Shown: one piece after another, positions 39,131 through 41,312 of the stretch
Numbering within the stretch: position 1 is the first letter of the stretch
How the letters are laid out: each line of letters opens with the position of its first letter
NCBI RefSeq assembly: GCF_000016165.1
Contig: NC_009253.1
Location: 310,001 to 374,000, forward strand
Source of the DNA: Desulforamulus reducens MI-1
Lineage (GTDB): Bacteria > Bacillota > Desulfotomaculia > Desulfotomaculales > Desulfotomaculaceae
Direction of reading: 5' to 3'
DNA length: 64,000 nucleotides
Program-made: the position numbers and the translations under genes
The notes under the pieces: model-generated
Database searches by the model: none
Told to the model about the DNA's origin: nothing
The model's input: the letters and a program-made list of their open reading frames with translations, nothing else

Positions 39131-39495
39131 ATGTCTATTAATTTGATTAAAGGTCAAAAAATAGATCTTTATAAAATGAAACCCGGAGTCAGAAGCATTT
39201 CCATGGGTATAACCCTTTGCGGCCCCATAAATAATTTTTTTGTCACAGCGATACTTACTGGCAGTTCAGGAAAGGTTGAGGATACGAAAAATTTTATTTT
39301 CTATGATAACTTAAGTAATCATGACGGTTCTGTTTTGATGACAAAGGACACCCCTCCACAAGTTAATGTTCATCTTGATAGGGTGCCCCTGGGGTTGACA
39401 GAATTGATACATATGTTAAAAATAGGCAGAAAAATGAATTCGAAAAAAACCAGATGTCACTTGGAATAGTAGATACGTCTATTTTTGGACGTTGA
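39131..39495 (+). pseudogene. Degenerate TerD-family gene
   Basis: Starts MSINLIKGQKIDLYKMKPG, the TerD N-terminus, after AAGGAGG, and keeps the order IFYDNLSNHDGSVLM / VNVHLDRVP. The Ca-binding DGDGDDEQ block is replaced by KDTPPQ, the DLDASAFLL block is missing, and a frameshift near 39420 moves the remainder (NEFEKNQMSLGIVDTS) to another frame ending at 39495. The 112-residue open frame is thus not a normal TerD. Expression cannot be excluded because the start region is good. Confidence 0.7.
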
Positions 39496-39505
39496 GGTGA
39501 AATGA

Positions 39506-39920
39506 ATGGATGAAAATATTTTTATAAGAATTTTAACCATGTGTTTTTATTATTTGTCTTCTCCGGAAGACAAAAACTACCTTGTCAACAGAATGAATCC
39601 ATTCCTATCTAAAAAGAGAATTCAGGGATCCTTAACTTTAAACACATTGGCAAAGGAAGCACCACTCTTCTCCTCTGCACAGAAACTTCTTTTAATGACT
39701 TATTCTCATATGTATATTCTCCTGCGGGATAGAAATCTACTGGAAGATACCAGTCTAAAGCAAATTCGTCAAATTTTTTCAGTTTCCGAAGACTTTGTAG
39801 CCTTTTACATGCGATCCATGCGAAGGGCCCACTACCGACAATGGATTCATGAGGATAACCTTTTGGAGTGCATATTAAATCCCTGCGAAGATTTTCGAAA
39901 GTGGGCAGAGGATACTACCT
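39506..39920 (+). other. Unrecognised coding piece fused to a radical-SAM remnant
   Basis: ATG 39506 with GAGGTGAA opens a 170-codon frame to 40015. The first ~138 residues (ILTMCFYYLSSPEDKNYLVN, FSVSEDFVAFYMRSMRRAHY, LLECILNPCEDFRKWAED) look like a genuine helical protein that I do not recognise. The last ~30 residues overlap the radical-SAM frame and are out-of-frame reading of it, so the original gene lost its 3' end in a fusion. Confidence 0.5.
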
Positions 39921-40403
39921 TTGGGGCAATACAAGAAGGTTGTAGAGGTTACCCCGAGGGTACAGTTTTGTTGGCATGGCGGAGAAACACTGCTAAGGGG
40001 ACTGGAATTTTATAAGCAGATTGTTGAATATCAAAGGAAATACAGCAGGGAGCATAACAAAATCCTCAATACCCTACAGACAAATGGAATCTTATTAAAT
40101 AGCGACTGGAATACTTGGTTTGGGAATAATCGGTTCCGGGTTGGAATCTCCTGTGACGGACCAAGTAATCATGACCAACAGAGGAAAGATCATACTGGGA
40201 GCGGGTCCTTTGAGCAGGTTGCAAAAGCTATAACGGAATGTAGGAGGAAAGATTATAGAACCCACTGTGGTGGGGTGTTGGCAGTGGTAACGCCAACTAT
40301 GCTTGATCGCCAGGAAGACATACTGGCAGAATTTTGCTTGGAAAAGAAAATGTTTTTCCAAGATGCTTTAAATTTAGTTCAGTTGGTTCGGCAAAAAATT
40401 TAA
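39921..40403 (+). pseudogene. Radical-SAM (anaerobic sulfatase-maturase-like) remnant lacking the 4Fe-4S motif
   Basis: The frame VQFCWHGGETLLRGLEFYKQ, NTLQTNGILLNSDW, VGISCDGPSNHD and GSGSFEQVAKAI is the middle part of SPASM-type radical-SAM maturases (F-WHGGEPLL, LQTNGTLL, G-S-DGP--HD). The N-terminal CxxxCxxC cluster motif is absent, since the sequence before it belongs to another reading frame, and the C-terminal SPASM domain is missing: the frame ends about 35 residues after LAVVTPTM. It must be non-functional as it stands. It directly precedes a small peptide gene (40428), the arrangement used by RiPP maturases and precursors. Confidence 0.75.
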
Positions 40404-40427
40404 ACTGGACGGAAGGAGGGAGTCCTG

Positions 40428-40562
40428 ATGGAGCTAAGTAATATTGAACTTGAATTTGCCAGAAGGTTATCATCTTCAGAACAAGCAACCTATGAAGGTT
40501 GGAATAATTATACCGATGTTGATGGTTGGGAAGAATGGGATCATTATGAGGAAGAACTATAA
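40428..40562 (+). CDS. 44-residue aromatic/acidic peptide, possible RiPP precursor
   Basis: ATG 40428 follows an excellent GGAAGGAGGGAG site, 24 bp after the radical-SAM remnant. The peptide has a leader-like half (MELSNIELEFARRLSSSEQA) and a tail YEGWNNYTDVDGW followed by EEWDHYEEEL: four Trp, Tyr or Trp-Asp/Asn spacings of the form aromatic-x-Asp/Asn (WNN, YTD). Such motifs are substrates of cyclophane-forming radical-SAM enzymes. The peptide is too short for automatic calling but its start signals are strong. Role as a precursor is inference; the local maturase is broken. Confidence 0.6.
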   Translation: MELSNIELEFARRLSSSEQATYEGWNNYTDVDGWEEWDHYEEEL

Positions 40563-40739: not shown

Positions 40740-41312
40740 TTGGCTGTTAATTTGCAAAAAGGTCAAAAGGTTGACTTAACAAAAGGGAGATCTAACCTTT
40801 CAAAGGTGGTTGTTGGCCTGGGATGGGATACTAACAAATTTGATGGCCCAGACTTTGATTTAGATGCGTCTGCTTTCCTGCTTGGCGAGAACGGCAAATG
40901 CGCTAGTGCCGATGACTTTGTTTTTTATAATAACTTAAAACATGTTAGCGGTTCTGTTATGCATATGGGAGATAACCTTACTGGTGATGGTGATGGTGAC
41001 GATGAACAGATTACCATTGATTTAAGCAAAGTACCTGCCCATATTCATAAAATTGCTATTACCGTTACCATTCATATGGCCAAAGAACGTAACCAGAATT
41101 TCGGTCTGGTTTCCAATGCCTTTGTTCGTGTGGTAGACGATAGCAACGGTTCTGAGCTGCTACGCTATGATTTAAGTGAAGATTACAGCATCGAAACCGC
41201 CCTGGTATTTGCAGAACTCTACCGTCACGGTTCCGAATGGAAATTTGCTGCAGTTGGTCAAGGCTTCAACGAAGGCTTGCAAGGATTGGTTAATCTATAT
41301 GGTTTAGCCTAA
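40740..41312 (+). CDS. terD: TerD-family stress/tellurite-resistance protein 1
   Basis: 190 residues from TTG 40740 (AAGGAGGATTTATC); the upstream ATG 40704 lies before the ribosome-binding site. TerD domain: [34 protein letters not shown], Ca-binding [38 protein letters not shown] and [20 protein letters not shown]. TerD proteins bind calcium and act with TerC at the membrane in stress and metal responses. First of three tandem paralogues spaced 16 and 29 bp apart. Confidence 0.94.

Follow-up and report, generated by a model that had tools for sequence, protein, structure and literature searches.

In this study, we examined a small gene cluster in the window, meaning the whole stretch of 64,000 nucleotides analysed from Desulforamulus reducens MI-1, where a peptide gene lies among the remains of a TerD-family gene, an M48 metallopeptidase gene and a radical-SAM/SPASM maturase gene and is followed by the first TerD of a canonical Ter cluster (Table 1). 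Among these cassette genes the peptide alone is intact, the other three being broken. The peptide ORF begins 24 bp past the stop (ending 40403) of the ORF at 39921-40403, which holds the radical-SAM remnant. This ORF matches Radical_SAM (PF04055) at 8.2e-7, barely above the cut-off, and many SPASM-type maturase models match it as well, but it does not contain the CxxxCxxC motif. The profile matches thus bear out the sequence-only reading, which had described a SPASM-type radical-SAM remnant without its cluster-binding cysteines 24 bp upstream of the peptide.

Table 1. Features of the peptide gene and its neighbours, in positions of the window.
Feature	Position	Strand	Evidence
TerD1, broken TerD-family gene	39131-39495	+	53% identity to G032 TerD1 over the first 88 residues; Pfam TerD 2.5e-13
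M48 metallopeptidase gene remnant, codons 1-146	39506-39943	+	66% identity to residues 1-146 of the 432-residue G032 protein
Radical-SAM/SPASM maturase remnant	39933-40400	+	blastp to G032: residues 43-178 (55%) and 320-344 (68%)
RBS region of the peptide gene, GGAAGGAGGGAG	40411-40422	+	sequence; the G032 equivalent is AAAGGAGG
Precursor-like peptide gene, intact, 44 residues	40428-40562	+	G032 homologue 73% identical, 4.8e-17; purifying selection
Putative core, the conserved tail GWNNYTDVDGWEEWDHYEEEL	40497-40559	+	20/21 residues identical to G032
Intact TerD, first of the canonical Ter cluster downstream	40740-41312	+	Pfam TerD 1.1e-86; 88% identity to G032 TerD2

With reference to the peptide itself, it was compared with all small ORFs of 20-120 amino acids in the six frames of the whole window (n=779). 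The peptide ORF was the only one to reach a net excess of five in-phase aromatics (W/Y/F) per 18-residue stretch, and it was among the five of 779 that carry AGGAGG within about 20 bases 5' of their first start codon. Read in triads, the tail gives WNN-YTD-VDG-WEE-WDH-YEE, so that the aromatic motifs noticed beforehand at the peptide end are plainly there, and all five of its Trp/Tyr residues fall in a single phase of three (0.0021 by counting; 136 of 100,000 whole-peptide shuffles reached the phase score). The tail also holds eight Asp/Glu and no Lys/Arg. Cysteine, which the core of a sactipeptide or ranthipeptide would contain, was found in neither the window peptide nor its G032 homologue, and this argues against thioether chemistry. 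A search of Pfam and NCBIfam with the peptide matched no family.

The broken genes retain enough sequence for the losses to be followed. The N-terminal part of TerD1 lies in frame from 39131 to about 39394, its interior is missing, and its C-terminal tail (about the last 30 residues) continues in another frame at about 39397-39495, where frame +2 reads DRIDTYVKNRQKNEFEKNQMSLGIVDTSIFGR up to its stop and matches the G032 tail ARIDTFINNRQKNEYEKSQMSMGIVDTSIFGR by eye. The C-terminal extension of TerD1, ending in (M/L)GIVDTSIFGR, is well conserved between G032 (L035:12620-13285) and the window (39397-39495), the broken copy included. The M48 remnant consists of an N-terminal domain without a name, the peptidase domain being lost, and its first 146 codons are fused to the 5' side of the radical-SAM remnant. 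From the latter both the CxxxCxxC and the SPASM region (240-324 in G032) are gone, the SPASM region by an internal deletion. The sequence-only reading had not noticed the loss of the SPASM region, the fusion to M48 or the break in TerD1. At the two enzyme junctions the homologies overlap, at 39933-39943 and at 40323-40340, which suggests deletions between short repeats whose lost copies are no longer visible. Since the matched stretches of the M48 and radical-SAM remnants are free of stop codons, the erosion looks recent when set against the time since G032 diverged; the gene breaks may also stem from a fault in sequencing or assembly. Elsewhere in the window genome there are four SPASM matches, none of them close, the best other match to the remnant being 37% over 98 residues. 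Judged by vWA and PP2C, a TerY-P-like set appears to be missing from this genome too, with a best vWA match of 7.4e-4 and a single PP2C_2 gene far away. The M48 N-terminal stretch of about 146 residues (39506-39943; within L035:11312-12610 in G032) is exactly the part that the window keeps. Its window copy has no Pfam match at E 1, and none of the further M48 relatives matches it. By eye the domain is possibly TerB-like and helical; a single-sequence structure model reached a mean pLDDT of 48, too low to assign a fold.

An intact counterpart was disclosed in G032, a genome of another family within the same order. Among 100 relatives, the peptide found significant matches only in the window genome (4.1e-26) and in G032, the next value being 0.084, and at E 10 there was some match in 14 of the 100. 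The radical-SAM remnant matched something at 0.001 in 96 of the 100 relatives, with G032 at 1.3e-50 (56%, in an open frame of 369 residues) and then a fall to 6.3e-24. The genes of G032 run TerD1 (221 aa), M48 (432), radical-SAM/SPASM (367), peptide (46 from the first start codon) and TerD2 (191), which is the order of the remnants in the window, and continue with a TerD with an extension (432), vWA (220), PP2C (445), kinase (472) and a TerD with a long N-terminal part (433). The precursor gene therefore adjoins an intact modifying-enzyme gene in G032, whereas in the window that enzyme is broken. The earlier expectation that intact versions may exist in relatives is realised here, with the peptide directly after an intact radical-SAM/SPASM gene and between TerD genes. 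The same genome speaks against the two outcomes that would have undone the sequence-only reading, namely that no homologue is linked to a radical-SAM gene, or that the peptide is the tail of an unrelated gene.

The G032 radical-SAM protein has its CxxxCxxC motif at residue 17, with seven Cys in a SPASM pattern at 240-324 (Pfam Radical_SAM 2.2e-14, SPASM 2e-7), and the M48 protein has HEVAH at 273, its later part matching Peptidase_M48 at 1.6e-18. The adjacent vWA, PP2C and kinase genes match VWA at 2.4e-17, PP2C_2 at 1.2e-49 and Pkinase at 3.7e-7 (30.2 bits against a cut-off of 31.7), and the MIDAS motif of the vWA protein looks complete by eye. Neither a transporter nor a sulfatase was found by Pfam among the ten G032 genes from TerD1 to the last TerD. 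The last of these (L035:2859-4160), beside the kinase gene, encodes 433 residues, with a TerD domain at the C-terminus after an N-terminal part of about 250 residues that is beta-helix-like by eye; five other Ter loci hold relatives of it (28-35%) together with kinase and vWA genes (L156, L158, L159, L163, L168), four of them with PP2C as well. Just upstream of the G032 cassette, a repeated translated motif (ETVTFDVLK / FQYIKCDGFP) at L035:14748-16189 suggests a CRISPR array.

The comparison between the window and G032 also permits selection to be read, with synonymous sites at or near saturation in every piece (pS 0.72-1.07). Over the 21-codon tail there were 1.0 nonsynonymous changes in 53.7 sites against 10.0 synonymous changes in 9.3. 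The nonsynonymous counts elsewhere were 7.2 in 35.5 sites for the 15 aligned leader codons, 70.2 in 347.5 for the M48 N-terminal part, 98.8 in 336.7 for the enzyme remnant and 44 in 443.7 for the intact TerD that follows. Amino acid identity accordingly falls from 0.95 in the tail to 0.88 in the following TerD, 0.67 in the leader, 0.66 in the M48 N-terminal part, 0.55 in the radical-SAM protein and 0.53 in TerD1. By these counts the tail is the most constrained stretch among those compared, though it is short, and the purifying selection on it, read from two sequences, is mostly that of the period before erosion. On this evidence the peptide is a real gene and not a chance ORF, since it has a discrete G032 homologue with its own RBS and joins synonymous saturation to a conserved tail; the homologue is the decisive support for the 44-residue peptide with strong start signals that had been proposed at the outset.

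Concerning the class of the enzyme, the radical-SAM core and SPASM Cys pattern expected of a triceptide maturase are both present in the G032 protein and lacking in the window remnant. The G032 enzyme was scored against named NCBIfam maturase models, and among the best 25 of 69 families it stays below the cut-off of every one, so that we assign it to no named cyclophane-maturase family within these 25. The best model, sulfatase_rSAM, gave 204.1 of the 349.45 bits required of an anaerobic sulfatase maturase; the others, among the same best 25 of 69, include DynA (173 of 450), DarE (128 of 650), AmcB (112 of 425), YhhB (111 of 445), GrrM/OscB (103.5 of 310), FxsB (96.6 of 370) and XyeB (52 of 450). 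The nearest solved structures are anaerobic sulfatase-maturating enzymes (best PDB matches anSME 4k36/4k37), and in PADLOC the enzyme matched viperin models only, weakly, at 6.3e-11. The known substrate of an anaerobic sulfatase maturase is a sulfatase, and the substrates of the dynobactin and darobactin maturases contain Trp. The cassette resembles the DynA/DarE systems in that these are among the nearest enzyme models and act on Trp-containing substrates; it differs in that its enzyme scores under their cut-offs and its core is different.

Closer likenesses were observed with two kinds of known system. In the available portions of PMC11002830, three-residue cyclophane enzymes bond ring carbons to the C-beta two residues on, and the reported pairs include Trp-Asn, Trp-Asp, Trp-Arg and Tyr-Asp at i+2. 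The triceptide/3-CyFE systems (XncB, OscB, MscB, YxdB, HaaB, YhhB) share with the cassette a small precursor beside a SPASM radical-SAM gene and aromatic-x-polar triads, W-x-N and Y-x-D being cross-linked by known members according to the same portions. The WNN and YTD units fit the Trp-Asn and Tyr-Asp links given there, whereas WEE, WDH and YEE fall outside them and VDG has no aromatic residue; cross-links at WEE, WDH and YEE would therefore be new in their third residues. In contrast to the triceptides, the cassette has acidic tandem triads, Glu and His at third positions, TerD and M48 neighbours, and an enzyme that reaches no named model's cut-off among the best 25 of 69. As regards organisation, FxsA/FxsB-type modules comprise a small protein, a metallopeptidase and, in one type, a radical-SAM/SPASM enzyme, and accompany vWA-based conflict systems, their peptide being predicted to be a toxin or an amplifying signal (PMC7159879, as far as its accessible text goes). 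The FxsA/FxsB and metallopeptidase modules of vWA-MoxR conflict systems described in that text likewise show a better-conserved C-terminal part of the peptide, a zincin-like metallopeptidase and a vWA signalling neighbour, with one described type acidic and one bearing the radical-SAM/SPASM enzyme. By gene order and Pfam, G032 has such a peptide, metallopeptidase and radical-SAM/SPASM enzyme beside a vWA gene. Unlike those modules, the cassette adjoins TerD and vWA-PP2C-kinase genes, its M48 protein has an unnamed N-terminal domain, and there is no FxS motif; the enzyme scores below the FxsB family cut-off, and no VMAP, MoxR or AP-ATPase partner was found among the ten Pfam-scanned G032 genes. 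TerY-P triads, in the part of PMC11090510 available, are metal-sensing phosphorylation switches and parts of defence systems. G032 has the adjacent vWA, PP2C and kinase genes of such a triad and, like the Ter clusters treated in that part, keeps them together with TerD, but its cluster differs in carrying the radical-SAM/peptide cassette. In our analysis the G032 cassette is thus a combination of FxsA/FxsB-module and TerY-P ideas.

Peptide and enzyme (a remnant in the window) lie side by side in two genomes within one gene order, the tail has been under purifying selection, and the window copy is eroded. The best reading of these observations is a rare cassette, triceptide-like in its substrate and organised like the FxsA/FxsB-peptidase modules. 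We consider it likely that a Ter-linked RiPP cassette is present and has been eroded in the window, a judgement on this reading as such and not on each step within it. That the peptide and the radical-SAM enzyme form a RiPP pair is highly probable. In the intact form, a precursor of about 46 residues would be modified by the radical-SAM/SPASM enzyme encoded just upstream, with the 21-residue tail as a putative core of six tandem three-residue units. The enzyme would most likely link aromatic rings to residue i+2, for which WNN and YTD offer the best support, and, going by the pattern of motifs and the class of the enzyme, we favour such i/i+2 cross-links by a little. Cutting of the precursor would probably fall to the M48 peptidase, whose gene precedes that of the enzyme; for leader removal by it, we see the chances as evenly balanced (M48 does not turn up in a term search of a review of RiPP leader proteases, PMC10885120). 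Because the product would be strongly acidic and no transporter occurs among the ten G032 genes, it would most likely have an intracellular role, serving the Ter apparatus as ligand or signal, with the vWA protein encoded in the adjacent vWA-PP2C-kinase set as one candidate partner; action in the Ter response is a tentative proposal. In the window genome, deletions would have removed both enzymes and the first TerD and left the peptide gene, so that any peptide made is probably unmodified. The proposal made beforehand, an eroded TerD-associated RiPP pathway, is accordingly supported at the level of genes and by one intact relative, the cyclophane chemistry being suggested by motif pattern and enzyme class. 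Against this reading stand the single intact relative and the close likeness of the two peptides, too alike to reveal variable residues, besides the enzyme scores below every cut-off among the best 25 of 69 families, its likeness to sulfatase-maturating structures, the Glu and His third residues, the want of M48 in the protease review and the 44 TerD loci that lack the cassette. A bolder form would make the cassette a new RiPP family, in which an unnamed radical-SAM/SPASM subfamily builds as many as five three-residue cyclophanes, contiguous or nearly so, into an acidic ladder, trimming falls to an M48 peptidase whose N-terminal domain is specific to the cassette, and the product serves as an intracellular metal-bridged ligand, through the vWA MIDAS or TerD, that switches the TerY-P kinase/phosphatase; we regard this as quite improbable.

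Of the alternatives, the one that survives best overlaps with the RiPP part of the above: the enzyme would modify the peptide by another reaction, such as darobactin/dynobactin-type ether or longer-range cross-links, epimerisation or Thr/Tyr modification. DynA, DarE and DarW are among the best-scoring models, and the tail offers W-N and W-x-x-W arrangements; however, all model scores are far under their cut-offs, making the ranking weak evidence, and selection for i/i+2 cross-links would produce just such a strict phase-3 pattern. We rate other chemistry as rather unlikely. It is less probable still that the peptide is a small acidic Ter accessory protein, for example metal- or TerD-binding, which works unmodified while the enzyme modifies something else. 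The persistence of the peptide in the window without its enzymes, the eight acidic and no basic residues of its tail, and an anaerobic sulfatase maturase as nearest named model would suit this, but period-3 aromatics, a leader less conserved than the tail and adjacency to a SPASM enzyme in both genomes (a remnant in the window) suit a RiPP precursor better, and the ten genes of the G032 stretch include no sulfatase by Pfam. Very doubtful is an ordinary anaerobic sulfatase maturase with an accidental peptide neighbour: sulfatase_rSAM is the best NCBIfam model (204 bits) and anSME 4k36/4k37 the best PDB matches, yet the 204 bits fall far short of the curated 349, Cys is absent from the peptide and Ser from its tail, and two genomes belonging to different families both place the peptide next to the enzyme or its remnant. 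Finally, the peptide's shortness and its lack of a Pfam or NCBIfam family would suit a fortuitous ORF or the end of some unrelated gene, but this can practically be dismissed: the peptide has a discrete homologue with its own RBS in another bacterial family and shows saturated synonymous sites with one nonsynonymous change in 53.7 tail sites.

Returning to the Ter-linked RiPP cassette, we investigated its distribution, and it was found in two genomes, the window genome (eroded) and G032 (intact). Within the class, the intact G032 enzyme matched 5 of 113 genomes at 1e-30, of which no more than two are outstanding, namely the window genome (4.9e-49) and G032 itself over its full length; the remaining three are 32-34% identical. 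A set of 44 further TerD loci in 32 genomes was assembled from 14 other genomes of the class (TerD at 1e-20) and 18 further genomes of the phylum sample (TerD at 1e-30), to which G032 contributed its second cluster only. With one G032 flank added (45 stretches), tblastn at E 1 gave no match to either of the two peptides, the enzyme or the M48 N-terminal part, and the sole M48 match was a distant one (28% over 109 residues, L135). The canonical TerD-TerC cluster of G032 is a separate locus (L139) without the cassette, and no cassette was found in the Ter clusters of two other genomes of the window's genus (L127, L128). On this survey the cassette is a rare passenger of Ter clusters and not a general component, and the Ter link rests on two genomes, as the 44 other TerD loci are without it. 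Eight ORFs with CxxxCxxC near other TerD loci were considered and rejected, none matching the G032 enzyme at 1e-4; by eye we take them to be menaquinone-pathway, AmmeMemo/PflA-like and RlmN enzymes.

Wider searches gave a similar picture. In the phylum sample, 21 of 398 genomes matched the enzyme at 1e-30, none above 34% identity save the window's own, and 14 of 398 matched the peptide at 0.1, the strongest after the window's own reaching 0.0025. This match (L092) and the similar L094 were rejected, as they belong to a different small ORF with no radical-SAM gene seen nearby. That ORF (L092:1039-1170, L094:1480-1671; GLSQKL..EGW.N.TSGEIG.IVREMIRMGE) is conserved in two genomes of one family, and the gene near it is presumably a threonyl-tRNA synthetase. 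A scan of genome contigs with the radical-SAM alignment yielded 31 loci, all of Bacteroidales type (mostly Alistipes) and 26-36% identical; it used two short patterns and missed G032 itself, meaning that the collection or the patterns miss members. A tblastn of 91 loci at 0.01, among which seven window or G032 loci were set aside, detected no TerD, M48 or peptide beyond fragments of 13-15 residues (L025, L026). Among viral contigs there was no peptide match and one weak enzyme match (21%). The enzyme matched 45 plasmid records, the 20 listed all below 31% identity and 11 of those annotated as anaerobic sulfatase maturase; the peptide was found in neither plasmids nor phages. When small ORFs in the 72 loci surrounding weak enzyme matches were scanned for the phase pattern, the highest score was 5.9, against 6.5 for the two known peptides, and no precursor of this kind was among its best 25 ORFs. 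In seven genomes, peptidases some 300 residues long share 40-50% identity with residues of about 145-420 of the G032 M48 protein, but blastp of the loci concerned (L120-L126, with little flank at L125) found no TerD, radical-SAM or matching peptide, and the peptidase domain alone is therefore not a marker of the cassette. In the literature covered, which mostly excludes subscription journals, no such cassette was met under TerD with radical SAM or RiPP in the accessible portions of PMC7159879, PMC7996765, PMC12672707 and PMC5312570, and nothing was found, within the same coverage, on radical SAM, M48 and a precursor peptide together. A survey of RiPPs in anaerobes, in its available part, gives other clusters, NHLP and lasso, for Desulfofarcimen acetoxidans (PMC4289311).

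To our knowledge, it is not yet settled which cues the Ter system perceives or by what means it passes them on. As a substrate for radical-SAM cross-linking, a Cys-free acidic core made of aromatic triads in tandem is out of the ordinary, and the G032 pair is small and clean enough for direct testing. With a dedicated precursor, maturase and peptidase within a Ter cluster, the Ter system would have a definite small molecule to seek. If the bolder form given above is true, this molecule would act in the Ter stress or defence response as a second messenger, in the shape of a modified peptide.
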